A DNA stretch of 64,000 bases from Roseicyclus salinarum (lineage in GTDB: Bacteria; Pseudomonadota; Alphaproteobacteria; Rhodobacterales; Rhodobacteraceae), in assembly GCF_029624655.1 (NCBI RefSeq), contig NZ_JARRSA010000006.1, forward strand, positions 1 to 64,000, in the 5' to 3' direction. The position numbers and the translations under genes were made by a program. Below are positions 2,912-56,246 of this stretch, one piece after another; positions within the stretch are counted from its first letter, which is position 1, and the number at the start of each line of letters is the position of its first letter. The notes beneath the pieces were generated by a model, which saw nothing but the letters and a program-made list of their open reading frames with translations, was not told the DNA's origin and made no database searches.

Positions 2912-3613
2912 CTAGCGCTGCAGGCTGAAGGCCGACTGGACCGCCTCGCGAGTCGTCTCGGACTTGGCCGCCGAGAATACGACGGCGCCGCGGCTGAGGA
3001 CGTAGAAGCGGTCGGCGAGGCCGAAGGCGAAGTCGAAATACTGCTCGACCAGCACGATCGCCATCTCGCCCTCGGCGCGAAGCTGCTCGATCACCCGGCC
3101 GATGAGCTGGATGATGTTCGGCTGGATGCCCTCGGTCGGCTCGTCCATCAAAAGAAGCTTCGGGCGCGTCACCAGCGCGCGGCCGATGGCGAGCTGCTGC
3201 TGCTGACCGCCCGAAAGGTCGCCGCCGCGCCTGCCCTGCATGTCCTTCAGGACGGGAAACATCTCCCATATGCGGTCGGGCACGCGCCGCTCGGACTTGG
3301 GCAGGCAGGCAAGCCCGATCTCGAGGTTCTCGCGCACGCTCAGCAGCGGAAAGATCATCCGGCCCTGCGGGACATAGCCCACCCCCATCTGCGCCAGCTT
3401 GTGCGACGGCAGCCGGGGCAGGGTCCGTCCCTCGAAGACGATCTCGCCGCCCGAGCGCTGGTGCGTGCCCGAGATCGCCTTCATCAGGGACGTCTTGCCG
3501 ACGCCGTTCGTGCCCATCACGCAGGTCACTTCGCCGCGCTTCGCCTCGAGCGTGATGCCGTTGAGGATCCGGCTTCCGCCGTAGTGCAGGGTCAGGTCGC
3601 GGGTTTCCAGCAT
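2912..3613 (-). CDS. urtE: Urea ABC transporter ATP-binding protein UrtE
   Basis: 233 aa ATPase of the branched-chain amino acid/urea (HAAT) family. It has Walker A GTNGVGKT (34-41), the signature LSGGQ (133-137), Walker B LLLMDEP and an H-loop region. The motif TEGIQPNI after Walker B is characteristic of the LivF/UrtE type. It is the last gene of urtABCDE, starting three bases after the urtD stop, so it is probably translated by coupling. With UrtD it energises uptake of urea (or short amides) through UrtB/UrtC. The assignment follows from the operon as much as from sequence. Confidence 0.93.
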   Translation of the reverse strand: MLETRDLTLHYGGSRILNGITLEAKRGEVTCVMGTNGVGKTSLMKAISGTHQRSGGEIVFEGRTLPRLPSHKLAQMGVGYVPQGRMIFPLLSVRENLEIGLACLPKSERRVPDRIWEMFPVLKDMQGRRGGDLSGGQQQQLAIGRALVTRPKLLLMDEPTEGIQPNIIQLIGRVIEQLRAEGEMAIVLVEQYFDFAFGLADRFYVLSRGAVVFSAAKSETTREAVQSAFSLQR

Positions 3614-3616
3614 CTC

Positions 3617-4357
3617 TCAGCGCCCCAGGTAGACTTCGATGACGCGCTCGTCGTCCATGACATGGTCGAGCGAGCCCTCGGCGATGACCGATCCCTCGTG
3701 CAGGACCGTCACCCGGCAGTCGAGGCGGCGGACGAATTCCATGTCGTGCTCGACCACCACGACCGCATGGGTCTGCGCCAGCCGCTTCAGAAGCGCGGTC
3801 GTGTGCTCCCGTTCCTCGGACGTCATGCCGGCGGCGGGCTCGTCCACGAGCAGAAGCCTCGGGTCCTGCGCCAGCAGCATGCCGATTTCCAGCCACTGCT
3901 TCTGCCCGTGGCTGAGGATGCCGGCCTGCCGGTCGAGATGCGCCGACAGCCCGATCTCGGCGGCGATCGCGTCGATGCGCTCGCGGTCGGCCTCGGTCAG
4001 CCGGTCGAACAGCGCGGCGAGCGGCCCGCGCGGCTTCTTCAGCGAGAGGCGCAGGTTGTCCCGCACGCTCTGGTCCTCGAACACCGTCGGGCGCTGGAAC
4101 TTGCGGCCGACGCCCGCCTGCGCGATCTGCGCCTCGGACATGGACAGGAGGGAATGGCCCATCTCGCCCCAGCGCACCGTGCCGGTGTCGGGCCGGGTCT
4201 TGCCGGTGACGATGTCCATGAAGGTCGTCTTGCCCGCCCCGTTTGGCCCGATCACCGCCCGCATCTCGGGCTGGCCGATGGTGAAGCTGAGGTTGTTGAT
4301 CGCGCGGAACCCGTCGAACGTGACCGAAATGCCCTGCACCTCCAGAAGCGTGCTCAT
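3617..4357 (-). CDS. urtD: Urea ABC transporter ATP-binding protein UrtD
   Basis: 246 aa ATPase of the LivG/UrtD type. Walker A GPNGAGKTT lies at 37-45, the signature is LSHGQKQWLEIG, and Walker B is LLLVDEPAAGMT. The Gln/His-rich LSHGQKQWLEIG form is typical of UrtD. The ATG at 4357 overlaps the stop of urtC in ATGA (4354-4357), so translation is probably coupled. It forms the ATPase pair with UrtE on the cytoplasmic side of the urea permease. Confidence 0.94.
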   Translation of the reverse strand: MSTLLEVQGISVTFDGFRAINNLSFTIGQPEMRAVIGPNGAGKTTFMDIVTGKTRPDTGTVRWGEMGHSLLSMSEAQIAQAGVGRKFQRPTVFEDQSVRDNLRLSLKKPRGPLAALFDRLTEADRERIDAIAAEIGLSAHLDRQAGILSHGQKQWLEIGMLLAQDPRLLLVDEPAAGMTSEEREHTTALLKRLAQTHAVVVVEHDMEFVRRLDCRVTVLHEGSVIAEGSLDHVMDDERVIEVYLGR

Positions 4358-5523
4358 GTCCGGTCCTTCCTGACGATGTAGTCCACCAGCCCGCCAAGGC
4401 CCTTGGGCGCGAAGAGCGTGACGAGGACGAAGCCGAGGCCCAGCAGCACGGGCCACCAGTCCACCCACTCGATCCTGTAGAAGCCAAGGTCCACGTCCGG
4501 GGCGCGGCCGCCGGTGAAGTAGGTCGACAGAAGCGACACGACGGCGGCCCCTATGACCGCGCCATAGAGGCGGCCGCGCCCGCCGATGGCGACCCACACG
4601 GCAAGGTAGATCGAGGCGATCGGCGCAATTTCGTCCGGGTTGATGATGCCCGCCTGCGGATAGTAGAGCGCGCCCGCGACGCCGCAGAGGATTGCGGTCA
4701 GGGTGAAGACGAACAGCTTGTATCCCTCGACCCTGTAGCCGAGGAAGCGCACGCGCTGCTCGTCGTCGCGCACGCCGCGCACGATGTTGCCGAACTTGCC
4801 CGACACCAGCCAGGCCGCGCCGACATAGGCGAGCCCGAGCGCCAGCGCCGAGCCCCAGAAGAACCAGACCGAAAGGCGGGCCTGCCCGACGCCCTCGAGG
4901 CCGGGAATGTTCTGCAGGCCCGACAGGCCGTTGTTGCCACGCAGGCCGCTGTCGTTCTGGAACAGGTAGAGCGACAGCGCCAGCGTCATGGCCTGCGTCA
5001 GGATCGACAGGTAGACGCCCGTGACCCTGCTGCGGAAGGCGAGCCAGCCGAACACGAGGGCGAGCGCGCCGGGCACCAGCACCACAAGCAAGAGGCTGAG
5101 CGCGAGGCTGTCCGAGACGGCCCACATCCACGGCCAGTCCTCGGCCCCGACGACCGAGAATATCTGGAGCGCCGTGGCCTGGCTGATCTCGGCCTCGGTC
5201 GGCGGGATGACGCCCTCGGCGAGGTTCGCGCGCACCACGGCCTCGGTCCGGGCGGTCATCAGCCACATGCCGATCATGTAGCCTCCGAGCCCGAAGAAGG
5301 CGAAATGCCCCAGCGAGAGGATGCCGCAATAGCCCCAGACGAGATCCATCGCCAGCGCCGCGAGGCACAGGCACAGCGTCATGCCCAGCACCTTGGTGAA
5401 GCTGACCGACATCGCGCCGGTGCCGTAGGCCTCGGACATCACCGTGACGCCGAGCGCCAGAAGCGTGAGCGCCGCGATGAAGATCGGGACCGAACGGTTC
5501 CGCGTGAAGATCGAGCCCTCCAT
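4354..5523 (-). CDS. urtC: Urea ABC transporter permease UrtC
   Basis: 389 aa hydrophobic LivM-type permease. Many membrane segments are evident (for example VMSEAYGTG flanked by helices, WGYCGILSLGHFAFFGLGGY), and the GxxSLGHxAFFxLGGY motif is typical of LivM/UrtC. The C-terminus ends in a cytoplasmic VDYIVRKDRT tail. The ATG at 5523 has GAGG just upstream and lies only four bases after the urtB stop. It forms the transmembrane channel with UrtB. Confidence 0.94.
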   Translation of the reverse strand: MEGSIFTRNRSVPIFIAALTLLALGVTVMSEAYGTGAMSVSFTKVLGMTLCLCLAALAMDLVWGYCGILSLGHFAFFGLGGYMIGMWLMTARTEAVVRANLAEGVIPPTEAEISQATALQIFSVVGAEDWPWMWAVSDSLALSLLLVVLVPGALALVFGWLAFRSRVTGVYLSILTQAMTLALSLYLFQNDSGLRGNNGLSGLQNIPGLEGVGQARLSVWFFWGSALALGLAYVGAAWLVSGKFGNIVRGVRDDEQRVRFLGYRVEGYKLFVFTLTAILCGVAGALYYPQAGIINPDEIAPIASIYLAVWVAIGGRGRLYGAVIGAAVVSLLSTYFTGGRAPDVDLGFYRIEWVDWWPVLLGLGFVLVTLFAPKGLGGLVDYIVRKDRT

Positions 5524-5527
5524 CGCC

Positions 5528-7495
5528 TCAGTCCCCCGCCGCGCGTCCGCGCAGGGCGATGATGCCCCTCGGCCGGAACTGGATGAAGAGGATCACGAAG
5601 AGGATCATGTAGGTCTGCGCCGCGAGTGTGTTGGACGGGTTGAGCCATTCGACGAACTTCTGGAAGCCGCCGATCATTCCGGCGCCGATCAGCGTGCCGA
5701 AGATGTTGCCCACGCCCCCCACGACCACGGTCATAAAGCTCTGGACGATGTAGTTGGCGCCGAGGTCCGGGACGACCTGCGCGAAGAGGCCGATGGCGAC
5801 GCCCGCGATCCCCGCGATCCCGGATCCGAGGCCGAAGGTCAGCATGTTGATGCGGTCGGGATTGACGCCCATCGACGCCGCCATGCGCGGGTTCTGCGTG
5901 ACCGCCCGCACCTCGAGCCCCAGCCTGGTGCGGTTCAGCACCAGCCACAGCAGCACGAAGAAGACCGCGCCGAGGATGAAGATCGCGATGCGGATCGAGC
6001 TGATCGAGACCACGTCGTTCAGCGCGACCGACCCCGCGAGCCAGTCGGGCGGCGTCAGCGGCTGGGTGAGCGCCCCGAACACGAGGCGGACGATCTGCTG
6101 CAGCGCGATGGAGATGCCGAAGGTCGCGAGCAGCGTTTCGAGTGGGCGGTGGTAGAGCCACCTGATCACCGAGCGCTCCATCGCGACGCCCGCGGCGAAG
6201 GTCACGAGGAAGGCGAGCGGGATGGCCAGCGCGATCGAGAGGGTCTCGTTGGGCACCACGGTCTGCACCACGTAGCCCGTGTAGGCGCCCAGCATGATGA
6301 ATTCGCCATGCGCCATGTTGATCACGCCCATGACGCCGAAGGTGATGGCGAGGCCGATCGCCGCGAGGAAGTAGATCGAGGCGAGCGACAGTCCGTCGAG
6401 CGACAGGTCGAGAAACCGGTAGAACGCCACGCGGGTCTCGATCCCGTCCAGCGTCTCGCGGGCGGCGGTCGTGACCGCGGCGCTGTCCTCGAGGTAGACC
6501 TCGTAGAAGGCGAAGGCGCGCAGCGCGTCGGCGACCTCGGCCTCGGTCGGCACGGGCGCGGCGAGGCCTTCGGCGACGAGGGCGGCATAGGCGCGGTCGC
6601 GCGCCTCCTCGGTGTCGAGCGCGCTGACGGGCACGCCCCCGACCGCGCCGTCCGCGATGTTGGCCGCAAGCACGTCCACGCGCGCGTCGCGCGGGATCAG
6701 CGCCGGGGCGAGGCCCGCCTCCACGAGCATCTCGTAAGCTTCCGCCGCGCCCAGATCCGCGGTGCCCGGCCGCAGCTCGCGCGCGACGTTCGCGTCCTGT
6801 GGCAGCGCCTCGGCCACCTCGGTGCGGGTGACCAGAAGCGGGTTCAGCGTCGCGCGCGCGGTCAGGCTCACGTTGCCCTCGAGGCTCCGGATCGCCTCGA
6901 TGCGGGGCGCGTCGTCGTCGGCGAAGGCGATGACGAGCGCGGGCAGAAGCGCCTCGACCCGGCTGCGCACGTCGGGATCCGCCTCGGTTTCGGCCAGCCC
7001 TGCAAGGAGGGCGAGGTGGCTTTCGTCGGGATCGTTCTCGATCGACTCGAGCGCGGCCAGGCGGTCCAGCGGGTCCTCGGAGGTGAGGCGGTACTGAACG
7101 AGGGTGGCCGCGATCACGCCCTGCACGCCGCGGTTCGGCCGCAGCTGCGACACCTCGCGGCTGCCCGCCGTGCCGACGACCTCGCCGGTCGATATGTCCA
7201 GCAGCGTCAGCGGATCGGCGTCCGGATCCTCGACGTAGACGAAAAGCCCGTCGCTGTCGCGCTGGTAGAGCTCGCGCGCCTGCCACGTCGCGAGGAAGTC
7301 CGGGACCTCGGGAAGCTCGCTCGCCACGAGGATGTCGAGCACCTCCTGCACCGTCCCGCGCGAGGCGTCGGCCACGAGTTCGGCGTTTTCCCGGAGGATC
7401 GACTGGAGCGCGCCGTCCGCCGGCTGGGCCGGGGCCTGCGACGGCGAGAACAGCGAAAGGACGCCCGCGAGGGCGACGAATGCGTAACGGATCAT
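5528..7495 (-). CDS. urtB: Urea ABC transporter permease UrtB with long periplasmic N-terminal domain
   Basis: 655 aa. Residues 1-24 form a signal-like segment ending in APAQP. They are followed by about 300 residues of polar, helical sequence, probably periplasmic. A LivH-type permease starts near residue 360 (ITFGVMGVINMAHGEFIMLGA) and runs to the end. This extended form, about twice the length of LivH, is the usual proteobacterial UrtB architecture. The extension's role is not established from sequence; contact with UrtA is an inference. A strong stem-loop separates it from urtA. Confidence 0.93.
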   Translation of the reverse strand: MIRYAFVALAGVLSLFSPSQAPAQPADGALQSILRENAELVADASRGTVQEVLDILVASELPEVPDFLATWQARELYQRDSDGLFVYVEDPDADPLTLLDISTGEVVGTAGSREVSQLRPNRGVQGVIAATLVQYRLTSEDPLDRLAALESIENDPDESHLALLAGLAETEADPDVRSRVEALLPALVIAFADDDAPRIEAIRSLEGNVSLTARATLNPLLVTRTEVAEALPQDANVARELRPGTADLGAAEAYEMLVEAGLAPALIPRDARVDVLAANIADGAVGGVPVSALDTEEARDRAYAALVAEGLAAPVPTEAEVADALRAFAFYEVYLEDSAAVTTAARETLDGIETRVAFYRFLDLSLDGLSLASIYFLAAIGLAITFGVMGVINMAHGEFIMLGAYTGYVVQTVVPNETLSIALAIPLAFLVTFAAGVAMERSVIRWLYHRPLETLLATFGISIALQQIVRLVFGALTQPLTPPDWLAGSVALNDVVSISSIRIAIFILGAVFFVLLWLVLNRTRLGLEVRAVTQNPRMAASMGVNPDRINMLTFGLGSGIAGIAGVAIGLFAQVVPDLGANYIVQSFMTVVVGGVGNIFGTLIGAGMIGGFQKFVEWLNPSNTLAAQTYMILFVILFIQFRPRGIIALRGRAAGD

Positions 7496-48926: not shown

Positions 48927-50138
48927 TCACGCGATGTCCCGCAGCGCGTTGGGTAAGGGGCGGGCCTTCAGTATCCGGAACGCAAAGGCCGACAGGATGA
49001 CCAGCAAAAACAGTCCCGCCCCGAACAGCATGGCGGTATCCGGTGTCCCGGTGCGATCCACCAACCAGCCGGCGACCGTCGGACTGACCGCCACCACCGC
49101 GTGGTAGAGCGTGAAGAACACGCCCATTCCGAAGGCGCGCCGCTCCGGTGCGACGGCTTGGCCGCTCAGCGCCATGATCACGCCTGCCGGCGCCATTCCG
49201 ATGATCCCGAACAGGAGGCTGGCACCCAGTCCCGCGCCGGGCACCTGAAGCAGCAAGAAGGCTGCTGCGCCGACCAGCATGCCCGCGACAAGCACGGTGT
49301 CGCGCCGTCCGAACCGGTCGACGATCTGGCCGCAGGCCGCACCGGAGAAGATCATGACCCAGCTTGCCACGCTGATGATCGACGCCGCCGCCAGCAATGT
49401 CATGCCACGCGCCTCGAGCACCGCGGGGCCGAAACTGAGCCACATGATGTAGCCCGCGTTGAACACGCCCCAGGCTATCCCTGCGCAGCAGATCAAGGCC
49501 CATTCGCGTGGCATCAGCCGCAGATTGCGTCCGGTGACCGGCGGAAGATCGTGCGGCGGGCGATACAGCGCGCAGACGCCGATCGCCGCCAGCGCGCACC
49601 AGGCCGAGGCCACGAGGAACGGCAGCCGCCAATCGTACAACGTCACCAGCCAGGTGTGCCCGACCTGTCCGATCGCGATACCGAAGGGCCAGCTCATCAC
49701 GAGCAGCGACATCGCCGTGGCGATCTCTCGGCCGCCAAACCAATCCGCGACCATCTTGGTGAAGTACAGCGTGACGACAAGGAAACCGGCGCCTGCCACG
49801 ATGCGACCGAAGCCGAGCGCTTCGGGACCCGTTGCGAAGGCTGACACCAGTCCGCCGATCGCCAAAGCGGAGAGGCCCGCAGCCGACAGCACCCGGTCCG
49901 ACGCGAAGCGCGCAAACGCGCCCGCGGGTAGCGCGAGGAACAGCCCCGGCGCCATGAACAGCCCGATCATCAGCCCGAGTTGCGCATTGTCCAACGCGAA
50001 GACATCGGCAATCTCTTTGCCGGCGGATCCCACCGTCTGGAATTGCGCGCCAAGGCTCGCGCGTGCGAGGACAAGCAGGGCGAGAATGCGCCAGCGAAGC
50101 GCGATCCGGGCTTGTGTCGTCTCCGGCCGGGCGCTCAT
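48927..50138 (-). CDS. MFS transporter
   Basis: 403 aa, twelve predicted helices. RASLGAQFQTVGSAGKEIAD and LDNAQLGLMIGLFMAPGLFL at the start and RFGRRDTVLVAGM between the halves (loop motif) mark the major facilitator superfamily, with cyanate or nitrate/nitrite-like proportions. Its ATG at 50138 overlaps the stop of a 47-codon frame (ATGA). Last of a three-gene coupled operon with an ester cyclase-like protein. The substrate is unknown. Confidence 0.88.
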   Translation of the reverse strand: MSARPETTQARIALRWRILALLVLARASLGAQFQTVGSAGKEIADVFALDNAQLGLMIGLFMAPGLFLALPAGAFARFASDRVLSAAGLSALAIGGLVSAFATGPEALGFGRIVAGAGFLVVTLYFTKMVADWFGGREIATAMSLLVMSWPFGIAIGQVGHTWLVTLYDWRLPFLVASAWCALAAIGVCALYRPPHDLPPVTGRNLRLMPREWALICCAGIAWGVFNAGYIMWLSFGPAVLEARGMTLLAAASIISVASWVMIFSGAACGQIVDRFGRRDTVLVAGMLVGAAAFLLLQVPGAGLGASLLFGIIGMAPAGVIMALSGQAVAPERRAFGMGVFFTLYHAVVAVSPTVAGWLVDRTGTPDTAMLFGAGLFLLVILSAFAFRILKARPLPNALRDIA

Positions 50139-50278
50139 GTCTCGTACTCCATGTAGACGAACCACGGATCGACCTCGATCGGGTCGGCGACGTCGGTCAC
50201 GGCGGTCATGCGAAAGCCTGCGTCGATGGCGCGGGGTGAAAGCCCCGCCGCGCCGTCGATCGAAGCCGAGGGCATCAT
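50135..50278 (-). CDS. 47-aa protein translationally coupled on both sides
   Basis: The ATG at 50278 overlaps the ester-cyclase stop (ATGA, 50278-50275), and its TGA overlaps the ATG of the MFS gene (50138-50135). The sequence MPSASIDGAAGLSPRAID and ADPIEVDPWFVYMEYET shows no membrane helix or family I recognise. The double overlap argues for a real translated frame, even if only to keep ribosomes moving to the transporter. A relic of a larger domain is another possibility. Confidence 0.55.
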   Translation of the reverse strand: MMPSASIDGAAGLSPRAIDAGFRMTAVTDVADPIEVDPWFVYMEYET

Positions 50279-50688
50279 GCCCAGCCCAGTTGGCGCACAG
50301 CGTGCACGTCGTTCCAGATCTTGGTCATGTGCCGGATGCGGCCCCCCTCGAATGTCATGACATAGGCATAGTCCGACGCGACCGTCTTGCCCGTCGGCGC
50401 GACCGGGCCGCCTGCGCCGGTCTGGGTGCCGTGGAACACCGCGGCGGCGACGACCGTCCCGCGTCCCTCGTCCGCGGCGAACGCCGTCAGGTCGTAACGC
50501 CCGTCGGGGATCGGCGTCAGCAGGCCCTTCATCCATTCGGTATAGCCCTGCAGCGTCGTCACGTCGGCCAGCGCGTCGGCCTGGCAGGCGAAGCCGGCAT
50601 CGGCGTGGCAGAACCCCTCGCAAGCGGTCCAGCCGCCCCCTGTCTCGCAGGCCTCGAAAAAGTCGCGTGCCGTCTGTTCCATGCTCAT
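50275..50688 (-). CDS. SnoaL-like/ester cyclase (NTF2-fold) protein
   Basis: 137 aa. Features such as ARDFFEACETGGGW, GYTEWMKGLLTPIPDGRYDL and YVMTFEGGRIRHMTKIWND are typical of SnoaL-like NTF2-fold proteins, which act as small-molecule cyclases, isomerases or dehydratases. The ATG at 50688 follows AAGGGAC. It is first in a three-gene operon divergent from the LuxR-GAF regulator, with TGCAGTA repeats in between. The reaction is unknown. Confidence 0.8.
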   Translation of the reverse strand: MSMEQTARDFFEACETGGGWTACEGFCHADAGFACQADALADVTTLQGYTEWMKGLLTPIPDGRYDLTAFAADEGRGTVVAAAVFHGTQTGAGGPVAPTGKTVASDYAYVMTFEGGRIRHMTKIWNDVHAVRQLGWA

Positions 50689-50754
50689 CGGTTTGTCCCT
50701 TTCTGTGGATCCGAACAGCATGACAGCAGGCGGCTCTGCGCGGCATCGGCCGGA

Positions 50755-50797
50755 TGCAGTATTTCGCGCGGGCAGCTTGCAGTAATTTTATACTGCA
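50755..50797. promoter_or_regulatory. TGCAGTA direct repeat and palindrome, candidate regulator site
   Basis: TGCAGTA (50755-50761) recurs at 50778-50784. The second copy is followed by ATTTTA and the inverted TACTGCA (50791-50797), giving a perfect 7-bp dyad around six bases. The site lies between divergent starts at 50688 and 50863 in an AT-rich patch. The adjacent HTH regulator is the natural candidate to bind it. Confidence 0.6.
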
Positions 50798-50862
50798 TCT
50801 GCGGGATTGCCCTGCGCGGCGGCACGCGGAAGGATCGAGATGTCATAGGGAACCGCCACGCC

Positions 50863-51672
50863 ATGCCGCAAGACCTGCTCAGCCCGCGCGAGATCGAGAT
50901 CGCCACAGCCTACGCGCAAGGTGACACCTACGCAAAGATCGCGAACCGGCTGGGTATCGCGCCCACCACGGTGCGGACGCATCTGGCCACGATCTATCGC
51001 AAGCTTGGGGTATCCTCGAAGCTGGACCTGCATTCCCTCCTGGTTGGCGACGCCAGGCCCCAGCAGGAAAGCACGGATTTCGCGGCCGTCATCTCGGAAC
51101 TCGCCCTCAGCCTCGAGGAGGCGCTGAGCCGTGAGCGCGCGATGGCCGAGGTGCTGCGCATCATCAGCCGGTCACAGGGCGATAACGACGCGGTCGTGTC
51201 GTCGATCCTCGGCCACGCGCTTGAGCTGTGCGAGGCGGAGTTCGGCATCCTGTTCGACTACCACGGGGGCAACAGGTTCGAGGCCACGCATGACCGCGGC
51301 ATACCGGACGCGTTCCGCGACTGGCTGAAGGCGCAGGGTGTGTTCGCGGTGGGGCCACGCACCGGCCTGGGGCGTGTGGCGTCGGGGCAAACTCCGGCGA
51401 ACATTTTCGATGTGCGGGCCGAAGAGATCTTTCGCAGCGACGACCCGCTGCGATGGGCGACAGCTCATCTGGGCGGCGCGCGGTCGTTCGTGGCGATCCC
51501 CATGATGTCGGGCAAAGGTCTGGCCGGGGCCTTCACCATTTACAGGCAGACGGTCAGACCGTTTTCGGAAACCGCCGTGGCGCTGGCGCAGAGTTTTGCC
51601 GACCAGAGCGTCATTGCCCTTGAAAACGCGCGCCTGTTCGCAGCGTTGAAGGATAGGGTGGCGCCGCAGTGA
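50863..51672 (+). CDS. Regulator with N-terminal LuxR-type HTH and C-terminal GAF domain
   Basis: 269 aa. Residues 3-62 are a LuxR/FixJ helix-turn-helix (LLSPREIEIATAYAQGDTY, RLGIAPTTVRTHLATIYRKLGV). A helix (70-100) leads to a GAF domain (about 105-262; LGHALELCEAEFGILFDYHG, ARSFVAIPMMSGKGLAGAF, FADQSVIALENARLF). Having the HTH before the sensor domain is the reverse of the common order. It would sense a small molecule through GAF and act on the divergent ester-cyclase/MFS operon. A good ribosome site is not obvious. Confidence 0.88.
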   Translation: MPQDLLSPREIEIATAYAQGDTYAKIANRLGIAPTTVRTHLATIYRKLGVSSKLDLHSLLVGDARPQQESTDFAAVISELALSLEEALSRERAMAEVLRIISRSQGDNDAVVSSILGHALELCEAEFGILFDYHGGNRFEATHDRGIPDAFRDWLKAQGVFAVGPRTGLGRVASGQTPANIFDVRAEEIFRSDDPLRWATAHLGGARSFVAIPMMSGKGLAGAFTIYRQTVRPFSETAVALAQSFADQSVIALENARLFAALKDRVAPQ

Positions 51673-52015: not shown

Positions 52016-54466
52016 TCATGGCGTTTCCGGGATGACGAATGGAAACCATCCGGTCTCGCCAACGATCACGAGACCGCCGGAACGTCCATTCTGCATCACG
52101 AGTTGGCAGTTTTCGATCTCCGTCTGCTGCCAGATCCACCGGTCGCACAGGCGGCCATCGACCACGACGCTCTCGCCCTCCCGAGCGCGGGGAAGTGGGC
52201 CGAAGACGCCGCTCTGAAACAAGATGCCGCCGGCGGTGCGAACTTGGCTCCAGTCATCCAGGGCGATCCATGTCCGTCGTCCGACGATCCGTCGATCAAA
52301 CAGGCGATCCTGGATTTCCTGGCCGGATAGCGGCGTGGGGCGCCCAAGGTCGTCATGCGTGCCTGGCTCCCCGGAGGCCCTGAGGATGCCATCGCGAAGG
52401 CGCGCGTCGATCTCGGCATCCGCGTAGCGTACAAGCGCCGCCGCCTCCGCCGCAGTCGGTCGACGCCACGTGGCCGCCCGCGGGTTCGAATAGCCGATGT
52501 CGCCGATACGCCAGGCACCGAACGGACGGCTTTCCTGAGCCTGGACAAGCTCCTCGAACGCGGCGCGCGCGGCGGCCTCCTCGCCTTCGAGGCCGAGGAT
52601 TGCCGCCCTGAGCGCGAGCAGCTGCAATGGAGGGGCCCGCGCCGTCTGGACAGCGATCTCGACGGCCTCCCTCGCGGCGGTCAGGTCGCCCTCGGCGAAA
52701 GCTGAAAGCGCGAGCGCGAGGTATCCGTCCTGCGGCGCCGCCGGCGACAGCATCACCACCCTGGCAGCGAGACGCCGCGCGGCGTCGGTCTCGCCCGTGA
52801 GCGCAAGGCTTCGCGACAGGACCGCAAGCGCTCCGACATGCCCGGTGTCGAGTTCGAGCGCACGTCGTGCGAGGCTCTGCGCAGCAAGATGGTCGAGACG
52901 GCGGAGCGCGAGCCGTGCGCGGGCGGCCAGGATGTCGGGATGTTCCCCATCGGCGGACGCCAGAGCCCGCTTGAGCATCAGGTAGCCCTCCAGCCAGTGA
53001 AGCGCCGCGGCCTGCGCGTAGTTGTCCGCCTCGAAGGCCACCCTCTCGAGGGCGACGACAAGGCCCGCGACGGGCTCGATTGCGCCCGGATGCCGCTCGA
53101 CCAGTTGGCTGAACCGCTCGAGAGCCTCGGCGTTGCCCTCGGGCGATCCGGAATGCAGCCGGCTGAGCGCACCGAGATAGGCGGGCACCGCCGCCTCCGG
53201 AAGCGTCGGCCGCGGGGGATCCGGCAACCCTGCGAGCTCCACGCCAATCCCGTCCGTTATCCGCTCCAGGATCTCGTCGCGCACGTCCCGAGGCGCGCTG
53301 GCCGAACCGGAGAACCGGCCGGCCCAGACCTCACGGCCGCCGGCGGCTTCGGTGATCCAGACGTTCAGCACCCACAGCTCGCCCTCGCCCCGGATCCGAC
53401 CGCGCAGGACGTGGCTGGCGCCGTGCACGGCTTCGTTGCCCGCAGCGACGATGCGCCCGCTTTCCCGCGACAGGACGTCGACTGCGGCGCGGCGCACGAG
53501 CTCGGTGGACAGGTCGTCCGAGAACCCTCGCGCAAGCTCGGGGGCTATGCCATCCCCGGCCTCAAAGGGACGGACAAGCAGGCGGGCGACATCGGACCCC
53601 GGCGCGGGATCGCGCGCCAGCGTTGCCCAGAGAAGCGCGGCGGCAGCGACGAAAGCGGCCGCGGCTGCGGCGAACGCAGGTTTCCGACGCGGACGTGAAA
53701 GCGCCGTGGCGACCGGCCCTGACGGCTTCGGATCGAAACTGCCCGCCCGGATGCGCCCGGCAAGATCGGCGAGCGCGTCGGACGGCGCGATGCCGAGGTC
53801 GGAGGACAGCGTCGCCGCGAATGAACCCGCCGCCTCGATGGCCGCGGCCGGTCGCCCTGCGCGCGCCAGGACCGACATCCGGACCCGCATGGCCGGATCG
53901 TTGTAAGGATCCACCGACAAGAGCCGGTCGACAATCGCCATCTCGGCCTCTTCCGGCACGCGCTCCCAGCTCTCCATCAGCTGCGTGCCCGCTTCGACCA
54001 CGAGACCCTCGAGCCGCGCGCGCTCCGCTGCGAGCCATTCCGAAAAGCCTTCCTCGGTATCGATGGAGAGGTCGTCGAGGAATGGACCCGAGTAGAGCTC
54101 GAGGCAGTGCCTGCGGCCCGCATCACCGTCTTGCCTGCAGGATGCGTCCAGCTCCCAAGCGTCGACCTTGATCCGGTCCGCACGGATCGCCACCGTCTCG
54201 GTGCGTGCGTCGATCAGATCTGGCGCCCACTCATCCAGCGCGCGCCGGAGGCTGTAGAGCGCCTGGCTGAGCGAGGCGAGCGACTGTCGTGTCGTGGTTC
54301 GGGACCAGAGTAGCCCGCCAAGCCGTTCGCGTCGGACCGGCTCCCCCTTTGCCACGAGGAGCACGGCGAGAAGCGCGCGCGCCTTCTTCGTCTCGATGCG
54401 GACGGGATGTCCATCGCCGGCGGCAAGTTGGAATGGGCCAAGGAGGGATGCCTGAAGCCGCGTCAT
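52016..54466 (-). CDS. Membrane-anchored BTAD/SARP-like transcriptional regulator with TPR-type repeats
   Basis: 816 aa. Residues 1-100 form an OmpR/SARP-type winged helix (LQASLLGPFQLAAGDGHPV, SLASLSQALYSLRRALDEW). Residues 100-245 are a bacterial transcriptional activation domain (helical, ELYSGPFLDDLSID, RMSVLARAGRPAAAIEA). An Ala-rich membrane helix lies near 262-285, followed by a domain like the FlgO/TolB-type LLVRPFEAGDG segment and helical TPR-like repeats (about 420-650). The C-terminal about 120 residues (WIALDDWSQVRTAGG) may be a separate beta domain. This CadC-like layout would pass a periplasmic signal to DNA. It is divergent from the secreted HExxH protein. Confidence 0.82.
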   Translation of the reverse strand: MTRLQASLLGPFQLAAGDGHPVRIETKKARALLAVLLVAKGEPVRRERLGGLLWSRTTTRQSLASLSQALYSLRRALDEWAPDLIDARTETVAIRADRIKVDAWELDASCRQDGDAGRRHCLELYSGPFLDDLSIDTEEGFSEWLAAERARLEGLVVEAGTQLMESWERVPEEAEMAIVDRLLSVDPYNDPAMRVRMSVLARAGRPAAAIEAAGSFAATLSSDLGIAPSDALADLAGRIRAGSFDPKPSGPVATALSRPRRKPAFAAAAAAFVAAAALLWATLARDPAPGSDVARLLVRPFEAGDGIAPELARGFSDDLSTELVRRAAVDVLSRESGRIVAAGNEAVHGASHVLRGRIRGEGELWVLNVWITEAAGGREVWAGRFSGSASAPRDVRDEILERITDGIGVELAGLPDPPRPTLPEAAVPAYLGALSRLHSGSPEGNAEALERFSQLVERHPGAIEPVAGLVVALERVAFEADNYAQAAALHWLEGYLMLKRALASADGEHPDILAARARLALRRLDHLAAQSLARRALELDTGHVGALAVLSRSLALTGETDAARRLAARVVMLSPAAPQDGYLALALSAFAEGDLTAAREAVEIAVQTARAPPLQLLALRAAILGLEGEEAAARAAFEELVQAQESRPFGAWRIGDIGYSNPRAATWRRPTAAEAAALVRYADAEIDARLRDGILRASGEPGTHDDLGRPTPLSGQEIQDRLFDRRIVGRRTWIALDDWSQVRTAGGILFQSGVFGPLPRAREGESVVVDGRLCDRWIWQQTEIENCQLVMQNGRSGGLVIVGETGWFPFVIPETP

Positions 54467-54640
54467 CCTTCGAGCATCCGGCCTGCGACTGCCTCGGGTC
54501 AAGCTTTGAGCCTGCCAGCGCTCGGCGCATTGGAAGGTGCATGGTGCATTTTTGAGAGCGGCTTGAGACAGAGTTGGCTCGAATCTGAGAGGGCATCGGC
54601 ATGCCGGACTCATCGCAACTCAGCGCATGGGAGCCTTCAC

Positions 54641-55162
54641 ATGAACGTCCTGACGAGCAGCCTGATCGCCCTGACCCTTGCCACACCGGTGGGTGCCGAT
54701 CCCCTCGTCGAGGGGCACGTCTCACCCTACGAGCCACGAATGATCCTCGACACGATGGAAGAACTGAACCTCTGGATTGACGCCTATACCGACCTGCCGC
54801 GATCGGACGTGCCGCTGGCCCGCGTCGAGTTGGTCGAGCCGGGTGTCATCATCCACTACGAAGGGCAGACGATGCAGATCGACGAGACCGTGCGGGGCGT
54901 CTACGACGCGGATACCGCCACGATCTTCCTCGTGCGGCAATGGTACGGCGAAACCGCCTTCGACCGCAGCGTGCTGCTGCACGAGATGGTGCATCACCGC
55001 CAGGTGAGCGCGCAGCACTGGTACTGCCCGCAGGCGATGGAATGGGATGCCTACCTGATCCAGGAGGACTACCTGAACGCCCACGGCGAGACGGGAGACT
55101 TCAACTGGGCGTGGGTGCTGCTCGCGTCGAGCTGCGCGGTCCGCGACCACCACCCCGACTGA
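54641..55162 (+). CDS. Secreted HExxH-motif protein (putative zinc metallopeptidase)
   Basis: 173 aa. An N-terminal signal peptide (MNVLTSSLIALTLATPVGA) is followed by a short domain containing LLHEMVHHRQ, with the zinc motif HEMVH at 114-118 and a possible third ligand E134 in AMEWDAYLIQ. Two or three cysteines could form disulfides (C129, C165). This is the pattern of small uncharacterised DUF-type zinc proteins; peptidase activity is inferred from the motif alone. GGGAG precedes the ATG at 54641. It is divergent from the BTAD regulator, which may control it. Confidence 0.8.
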   Translation: MNVLTSSLIALTLATPVGADPLVEGHVSPYEPRMILDTMEELNLWIDAYTDLPRSDVPLARVELVEPGVIIHYEGQTMQIDETVRGVYDADTATIFLVRQWYGETAFDRSVLLHEMVHHRQVSAQHWYCPQAMEWDAYLIQEDYLNAHGETGDFNWAWVLLASSCAVRDHHPD

Positions 55163-55163
55163 G

Positions 55164-56246
55164 CTAGAGGCCGAGCCCCCGCCGCCACGCGGCGAAACGC
55201 TCGGTCAATTCCGGCCCGTGCTCGACCCAGAAGTCGGGATCGAGCACCAGCGCCCCCTCTATGCGGTCCTCGCGCGAGGGAATGTGCGGCAGGACGGGCG
55301 CACCCGTATGAAACCACGGCTCGCCCGCCGCGATGATGTCGAGCGCCGATTTCCGCATCGGGCCGTAGGGTATCCACCGCGCTTGCGCCGCCTGCTGCTC
55401 GGGCTCGGCCACGTGGCGCAGGAAGTCGAGCGCCGCCGCCTCGTTGGGCGCGCCTGCGACGATCACGAACCATTCCTCGTCGAGGATCTGCCCCGCATAG
55501 ATCGTACCGATCCGGTCCTCCCCCGCAAGCTCGGCAGCTGCCACCCGGCCGCTATAGGCAGTCGCCATCGCCACCTCACCCGAGCGCAGAAGGTCGACAG
55601 GTTCCTCGCCTGACGACCAGAGCCTCAGATCGGCCGCGATGCGGTTGAGCACCCCGAACGCCCGGTCCCGTCCCTCATCTGTAGCGAGCAGTTCGTACAC
55701 CTCGCTGGCGGCCACCCCATCGGCCATGAGCGCCATCTCGAGGTTGGCCTGCGGAAAGGCGGCAATTGCCCGTCGCCCGGGAAACGCCTCGGTGTCGAAA
55801 AAGTCGGCGAGCGTTTCAGGCGCCTCGTTCGGAAACGCGTTGTTGTCGTAGGCCGTGACCCACGACCAGATGATGTTGGGCCCGACGCATTCGTTCGGCC
55901 GCGGGATGACGAGATCGTCTTGCATCCCGGTGGGAAAGAAGTCGTCCGGCAAACGCAGGAACAGGCCTTCCTCGCAGCCCGCGCGCGCGTCATGAGCGAG
56001 CACGTCCACCACGTCCCAGGCGATCGCGCCGCTCGCGACCTGCTCGCGGATTTCTTCGAGACCGCCACGGTACTCGATCCATTCGATCCCCGGAGTGAAA
56101 CCGGGAGAATAGGCGTTTTCCTGGCTTTCCTGATAGATCCCGCCCCAAGTGACCACGGTCAGATCGTCCGCGGAGACCGATACGGGAGCCAGTATGGCGC
56201 ACAAGATCGCGCATTCACGGCGCAACTTTGACCTGTTCCAGATCAT
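55164..56246 (-). CDS. Periplasmic substrate-binding protein (PotD/spermidine-putrescine-like)
   Basis: 360 aa. A signal peptide (ECAILCAILAPVSVSA) precedes LTVVTWGGIYQESQENAY, the canonical opening of polyamine/iron-type ABC binding proteins. VDVLAHDARAGCEEGL, GVPNIIWS-like VGPNIIWSWVTAYDN and FPGRRAIAAFPQANLEMAL follow the family. No permease or ATPase gene is beside it, so it is an orphan or its partners lie elsewhere. The ATG at 56246 has only a weak ribosome site. Its stop is one base past the stop of the convergent HExxH gene. Confidence 0.85.
   Translation of the reverse strand: MIWNRSKLRRECAILCAILAPVSVSADDLTVVTWGGIYQESQENAYSPGFTPGIEWIEYRGGLEEIREQVASGAIAWDVVDVLAHDARAGCEEGLFLRLPDDFFPTGMQDDLVIPRPNECVGPNIIWSWVTAYDNNAFPNEAPETLADFFDTEAFPGRRAIAAFPQANLEMALMADGVAASEVYELLATDEGRDRAFGVLNRIAADLRLWSSGEEPVDLLRSGEVAMATAYSGRVAAAELAGEDRIGTIYAGQILDEEWFVIVAGAPNEAAALDFLRHVAEPEQQAAQARWIPYGPMRKSALDIIAAGEPWFHTGAPVLPHIPSREDRIEGALVLDPDFWVEHGPELTERFAAWRRGLGL

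Follow-up and report, generated by a model that had tools for sequence, protein, structure and literature searches.

We analyzed a 64,000-nucleotide stretch of DNA from Roseicyclus salinarum (Rhodobacteraceae; RefSeq assembly GCF_029624655.1, contig NZ_JARRSA010000006.1, positions 1 to 64,000 of the forward strand), called the window here, which carries a three-gene unit at 52016-56246. The unit encodes a predicted membrane-anchored regulator with a winged helix-turn-helix (wHTH) and a BTAD domain (REG, minus strand), a predicted exported protein with an HExxH motif (HX, plus strand), and a PotD-like solute-binding protein (SBP, minus strand). REG and HX are divergent, and HX and SBP lie tail to tail. 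A preliminary description of this DNA had pointed to a BTAD regulator with a membrane helix and a TPR-like outer part opposite an HExxH protein. Pfam matches, hydropathy, and the HExxH motif, invariant in 48/48 aligned relatives of HX, bore out that gene pair, to which the third gene, SBP, has to be added. The open reading frame (ORF) of REG is open over 52016-54613 (865 amino acids [aa]), and an internal ATG at 54466, giving 816 aa, is most likely the start because the alignment with five orthologues begins there. A pattern-based scan of GTDB contigs found these five REG loci besides the window, in Psychromarinibacter sediminicola, Halovulum marinum, Rhodobacterales bacterium HKCCE3408, Tranquillimonas rosea, and Rhodosalinus halophilus. 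The genes of the loci were called with a simple ORF chooser that missed HX in the window and may misplace starts. Feature coordinates are collected in Table 1.

Table 1. Features of the REG-HX-SBP locus, in window coordinates, with the basis of each assignment
Feature	Position	Strand	Basis
REG (816 aa), predicted wHTH-BTAD membrane regulator with a CadC-like sensor in the periplasm	52016..54466	-	ORF, Pfam, PDB matches, orthologue alignment
REG winged helix, aa 26-85	54212..54391	-	Trans_reg_C; EmbR 2fez match spanning the region
REG BTAD domain, aa 119-240	53747..54112	-	PF03704, 50.7 bits, E 3.1e-13, cut-off 22.1
REG predicted transmembrane helix (the only one), aa 265-283, positively charged on its N-side	53618..53674	-	Hydropathy; matching place in 6/6 orthologues
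REG predicted periplasmic CadC-like sensor part, aa 286-607	52646..53611	-	AlphaFold2 model, Foldseek, VIA
REG predicted beta region at the C terminus (about aa 708-816), containing Cys774 and Cys787	52019..52345	-	Six-sequence alignment, predicted secondary structure
Predicted operator with direct repeats phased at 11 bp	54551..54590	+	Six-spacer alignment, periodicity, shuffles, genome uniqueness
HX, DUF6647, predicted exported small metallopeptidase, 173 aa	54641..55162	+	PF20352, invariant residues
HX HEMVH motif, aa 114-118	54980..54994	+	Third-ligand candidate Glu134 at 55040-55042
SBP, PotD-like periplasmic solute-binding protein (SBP_bac_8)	55164..56246	-	Pfam, PDB 8jv1, kept in 6/6 REG loci

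The N-terminal half of REG has the features of a SARP, a regulator type known for governing Streptomyces antibiotic genes, with an OmpR-type winged helix, recognized through a match to EmbR, followed by the BTAD domain. In a sequence search of the PDB, EmbR (2fez) matched residues 51-302 of the REG ORF with an E value of 3e-7, and AfsR (8hvr) was a weak match to the N-terminal half (E 0.054). We called the membrane helix from hydropathy, which is 1.96-2.65 at one site in all six orthologues, with the next best segment reaching no more than 1.28. In these orthologues the net charge is +2 to +5 over the 15 residues preceding the helix and -1 to +1 over the 15 that follow it, so by the positive-inside rule the N terminus would be cytoplasmic and the C terminus periplasmic. 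Among 29 distinct best-scoring relatives of REG from loci outside the six species, 26 have no segment above a hydropathy of 1.6, and the chimera is therefore unusual among the sampled wHTH-BTAD proteins.

We modeled the outer part of REG (aa 286-816) with AlphaFold2 from six sequences, which gave a mean predicted local distance difference test score (pLDDT) of 87.4 and a predicted template modeling score (pTM) of 0.90. The model predicts a CadC-like part, TPR-type helices, and, after a linker that follows the CadC-like part, a beta region at the C terminus that contains a Cys pair. The four best Foldseek matches in the PDB were the CadC periplasmic-domain entries 3ly7, 3ly8, 3ly9, and 3lya (E 5.5e-7 to 2.2e-6), with template modeling scores (TM-scores) of 0.54-0.58 by target length and 0.35-0.37 by model length and an identity of 12-13%. 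The same four entries came first in VIA (Z 17.6-18.4), aligning 296-302 of about 322 residues with a root mean square deviation of 5.6-5.8, and the match begins at model residue 1-5 and ends at 322-325, corresponding to REG aa 286-610. TPR proteins came next, with Z values up to 17.3, which VIA's rule treats as tied, over about 140 residues, and the rows for 2xpi, 9hvq, and 6vbv also begin early in the model (Z 14.2-15.6). The TPR helices thus appear to add to the score in this model, yet the CadC entries have the widest coverage. In the window, REG aa 286-607 contain no Cys, and the only periplasmic Cys residues are 774 and 787. Both are invariant in 6/6 orthologues and, judging by position, face each other in a predicted hairpin, where they may form a disulphide. 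The Pfam scan gave no match for the C-terminal beta region. The preliminary description had called the regulator CadC-like in concept but made of actinobacterial-style domains, and the predicted CadC-like fold, the SARP/EmbR-like DNA-binding half, and the 11-bp repeats in the REG-HX spacer (see below) agree well with that view.

HX matches the Pfam family DUF6647 (PF20352) with 117.7 bits against a cut-off of 24.1. By eye its N terminus resembles a signal peptide, and the protein is predicted to be exported. Residues H114, E115, H118, Q121, C129, E134, and Y138 are invariant in all 48 aligned relatives; C165 is found in 37 of the 48, and the other 11 have gaps; each row was trimmed to its profile match, which may itself have produced gaps close to the end. 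In gluzincins, the HExxH motif and a downstream Glu lie on two consecutive helices. The predicted helices of HX that hold H114-H118 (106-123) and E134 (130-147) are likewise consecutive, and HX has the gluzincin (peptidase clan MA) pattern of an HExxH followed by a downstream Glu in 48/48 relatives. Our literature search on DUF6647 found a single paper, PMC11467057, which in the excerpts available makes a case for placing the family in peptidase clan MA on the basis of embeddings and the HEXXH motif and describes no assay. The third ligand is sought there on the upstream side of the motif, but the invariant Glu134 of HX lies on its downstream side.

SBP matches SBP_bac_8 in Pfam with 128.5 bits, and by profile it is like the PotD-type polyamine-binding proteins, with the spermidine/putrescine-binding protein 8jv1 matched at E 5e-82. 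Scoring the five best candidates per genome in 345 genomes of the family, we found the wider SBP family in 294 genomes at E <=1e-40, with scores up to 341 bits. Close copies (>650 bits) were found only adjoining HX, at five places in four of these genomes. A Pfam scan covering the window neighbors found no permease. Because an orphan binding protein adjoins a predicted periplasmic sensor, we conjecture that SBP is a co-sensor.

We determined how the three genes are distributed. DUF6647 is present in 41 of the 345 family genomes, at 49 places (one of them below the Pfam cut-off), and in 4 of 288 other genomes in a class-wide sample, besides the source genome. Scoring the two best candidates per genome, we found full-length REG in 4 of the 345 family genomes. 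In an order-level sample of 390 genomes, which overlaps the family sample and includes its four REG genomes, 5 hold full-length REG with scores of at least 1175 bits; the next score was 185 bits. The source genome holds one REG. In all six species with REG, the window included, HX is divergent and SBP is tail to tail, and so the loss of co-conservation that the preliminary description took as refuting the pairing did not arise. We compared flanks of about 6-8 kb on each side and found no further gene in a conserved position; weak matches at 27-28% identity linked genes of generic appearance, and two of these matches occupy nearby positions in Halovulum and Tranquillimonas. The window neighbor at 49459-51672 (plus strand), which encodes a LuxR-type helix-turn-helix and a GAF domain, was not found adjoining REG in the other species' loci compared. 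HX was not found in the four same-genus genomes searched. Among plasmids, REG matched 21 records, none of which reached 80% coverage of it, and HX matched 4 records with 31-38% identity over 42-83% of its length. We infer that the REG-HX-SBP set behaves as a mobile cassette.

The spacer between REG and HX is 174-185 bp long in the six species, with a mean column identity of 60% when aligned, and its longest invariant runs fall in the direct repeats TTTGAGA and TTGAGA, 11 bp apart. In the window the copies read TTTGAGA (54551-54557), TTGAGA (54563-54568), a degenerate TTGGCT (54574-54579), and CTGAGA (54585-54590). Compared with itself, the array has a mean identity of 0.51 at a shift of 11 and 0.42 at a shift of 22, against 0.17-0.32 at the other shifts between 5 and 25. 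When we scored the four-repeat array against 2000 mononucleotide shuffles per spacer, the p values across the six spacers were 0.0065, 0.0295, 0.002, 0.07, 0.0055, and 0 of 2000. The exact pair TTGAGAN5TTGAGA occurs once per genome in 6/6 genomes, always in the REG-HX spacer, and the pair read backwards occurs in none of them. It was present in 23 of 137 loci examined, all 23 of which are copies of the REG-HX spacer. We also looked for a wider REG regulon; allowing one mismatch added two sites in the source genome against one for the reversed pattern, which is the level of chance. Excerpts of two papers (PMC10936776 and PMC4393881) describe SARP sites as direct repeats with a spacing of 11 or 22 bp, in which the upstream copy overlaps the -35 region, and repeat spacing of this type is present in the spacers of all six species.

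The patchy distribution, with no HX in the same-genus genomes, and the flanking genes that vary between hosts would also fit three genes that merely travel together, with no functional link between REG and HX and with the repeats serving another DNA-binding protein. We regard this as very unlikely, given that none of the six genomes has the exact pair outside the REG-HX spacer, that a second copy of HX without REG and the HX loci facing other regulators (both described below) lack it, and that the site is kept although REG identity across species falls to 36%.

The orientation of the repeats bears on which gene they serve. Read in the HX direction, TTGAGA resembles a -35 hexamer (TTGACA), and across the six species 70-76 bp separate the end of the pair from the HX start, which leads us to favor HX as the driven gene. 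On the other strand, a -35-like hexamer, TTGACC, lies at 54498-54503, and by eye TTGAC stands at a nearly fixed distance from the REG start in five of the six spacers. A transcript from TTGACC would begin near the ATG, and REG may therefore have a very short leader or none. No clear -10 element was found for REG or for HX. Alternatively, REG could control mainly itself and SBP, through read-through from SBP to REG in a noncontiguous operon antisense to HX. SBP and REG do share a strand with HX antisense between them, and SBP is retained in 6/6 REG loci. The stop codons of HX and SBP are 1 nucleotide (nt) apart in the window, 0, 0, 4, and 4 nt apart in four relatives, and about 14 nt apart in Halovulum, as measured from ORF ends, which leaves little room for separate terminators. 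The -35-like reading of the repeats in the HX direction, 70-76 bp from the HX start, argues against this arrangement, and we consider it unlikely.

We asked which regulators stand opposite DUF6647 genes elsewhere. Across the 49 places in the family genomes, 14 intact divergent LysR genes face DUF6647 in 13 genomes, and one further locus has LysR fragments. Pfam called LysR in 4 of the 14 intact loci, and a profile built from that group called the other 10. Three winged helix-transmembrane-TPR proteins, in which Pfam finds no BTAD, face DUF6647 at loci L089, L094, and L100; one winged helix-transmembrane-cupin protein, a membrane-anchored type with a predicted periplasmic cupin sensor, does so at L106 (4834-6235), and one LuxR-type response regulator at L103. 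For the 28 places classed as "other," the upstream neighbor was Pfam scanned in 12; seven scanned neighbors had no recognizable regulator (EamA in two, MFS, YmdB, DUF1801, recombinase ribbon, and one without a match). The 14 LysR-facing genes, at loci L009, L045-L053, and L083-L086, form a second regulator-output pair worth study. One of them, L045, has two tandem DUF6647 genes (3352-6135), the second within a 721-aa ORF with PAS and HWE histidine-kinase domains that may be a fusion or just a stretch that happens to lack stop codons.

We built a tree of HX with 48 rows, taking the 49 places without L102 and L104 (too short) and L111 (low score) and adding L114 and L115 from other genomes. Partner type is clustered on this tree, with 4 changes compared to a shuffled mean of 17.7. 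The BTAD-linked HX proteins form one group (86/75, not starred), and 13 of the 14 LysR-linked rows form another, with L050 apart. Nested in the BTAD-linked group (98/96, starred) is a second HX copy of the source genome, which is 74% identical to the window HX and is paired with an SBP at L008 (G000:C17:20000-36000; 5650-7273). By eye, this second pair lies directly downstream, on the same strand, of an apparent alternative F1Fo ATP synthase operon.

These partners bear on the direction of the link. The preliminary description had left open whether HX is the target of REG or its activator by cleavage. In a scheme of regulated proteolysis, HX would cut the periplasmic part of REG and would be its input rather than its output. 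Such a scheme is consistent with the predicted export of HX to the compartment that holds the REG sensor and with the absence of any REG without HX in the six species. However, HX relatives are far commoner than REG (41 versus 4 of 345 genomes), and elsewhere they face LysR (14 of 49 places) or LuxR-type (1 place) regulators, which are expected to be cytosolic and thus out of reach of an exported protease. The conserved spacer site also fits HX as output. We found no support for the activator proposal and judge it highly improbable, although feedback cleavage of REG by HX may occur. The target proposal gains from the co-conservation and the spacer site, with the role of HX still a predicted one. 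HX occurs without REG, but every REG found has HX beside it, a pattern that agrees with HX as a recurring output, and HX looks like a target of REG rather than its activator.

Based on these results, we propose that REG, HX, and SBP form a dedicated one-component signaling cassette in which a SARP/CadC chimera senses the periplasm and locally drives HX, and we put the probability of this reading at roughly 0.72. REG would sit in the inner membrane with a cytoplasmic SARP-type winged helix and BTAD and a periplasmic CadC-like/TPR/beta sensor. On a periplasmic cue, it would act on the 11-bp-phased direct repeats in the spacer and activate the divergent HX gene, whose product would be exported as a small gluzincin-like metallopeptidase. 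REG may also control its own gene, and SBP may inform the sensor about ligand or act in the same pathway. We infer activation because known SARPs are activators; topology, DNA binding, the role of SBP, and catalysis by HX are likewise predicted parts of this scheme.

Several observations weigh against this proposal. The Trans_reg_C match of REG, at 22.1 bits, is under the Pfam cut-off of 26.2. The source genome's second HX+SBP pair has no adjoining REG and no repeats, and so HX and SBP can occur without REG. The HX model has a pLDDT of 70, and Foldseek found no match to its fold at E <=0.001, the best being 0.69. The best VIA Z value for HX was 8.7, called middling by the tool, with the rows shown being mostly M1 aminopeptidases, and it is no more than suggestive of a zincin fold. 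Repeats 3 and 4 are degenerate (TTGGCC-like and TCTGAGA-like), though at the same 11-bp phase, and the single-spacer shuffle p value is 0.07 in Tranquillimonas and 0.03 in Psychromarinibacter. The 11-bp periodicity is not significant in every species alone; conservation and uniqueness of the site weigh more. When two mismatches are allowed, the window holds 2 pairs compared to a chance mean of 1.49. SARP promoters have the 3' repeat 8 bp upstream of the -10 element; by eye, the six aligned spacers show no convincing -10 at this distance.

A more specific version of the proposal is that the REG sensor detects whether its own PotD-like SBP, an orphan, is loaded, and that REG drives one exported metallopeptidase through a genome-unique site, with DUF6647 as a recurrent output that has repeatedly recruited dedicated regulators (the SARP/CadC chimera, winged helix-transmembrane-TPR, winged helix-transmembrane-cupin, LysR, and LuxR types). 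We offer this version tentatively, as a possibility that is more doubtful than not. If the one-component scheme is correct, the SARP activation module of actinobacterial antibiotic regulators can also operate when tethered to the membrane and governed by a CadC-like sensor. With a single exact predicted site in each genome and an adjoining output gene, the cassette would make a compact test system for how a tethered regulator finds its operator, and the link from regulator to site to output is unusually clean and directly testable. The uncharacterized DUF6647 family gains a regulatory context of divergent control by several unrelated regulator families, and, if this holds, its loci are a natural series for studying regulator exchange at one target.

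A full-text literature search for BTAD together with CadC returned no paper, and no membrane SARP was described among the matches listed in a search on CadC-like, BTAD, transmembrane, SARP, and Proteobacteria. The main text of a survey of transmembrane regulators (PMC10269533), as far as excerpted and apart from its supplementary domain tables, makes no mention of BTAD or SARP. With CadC/ToxR-like regulators, REG shares a cytoplasmic winged helix, one membrane helix, and a periplasmic sensor, as predicted here, but it has a BTAD between the winged helix and the membrane, plus the TPR and beta extensions. The Cys pair of Escherichia coli CadC (C208/C272) lies within the CadC domain, according to excerpts of PMC3096576, whereas the periplasmic Cys pair of REG lies in the C-terminal extension; the pair in the CadC domain is a trait of the E. 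coli protein and is not known to define the family. With SARPs (AfsR and EmbR-like proteins), REG shares the wHTH, the BTAD, and, at the presumed target, direct repeats spaced by 11 bp. Those SARPs are soluble actinobacterial proteins, whereas REG is predicted to be membrane anchored, comes from Rhodobacterales, and faces a gene for a predicted exported protein instead of biosynthetic genes.

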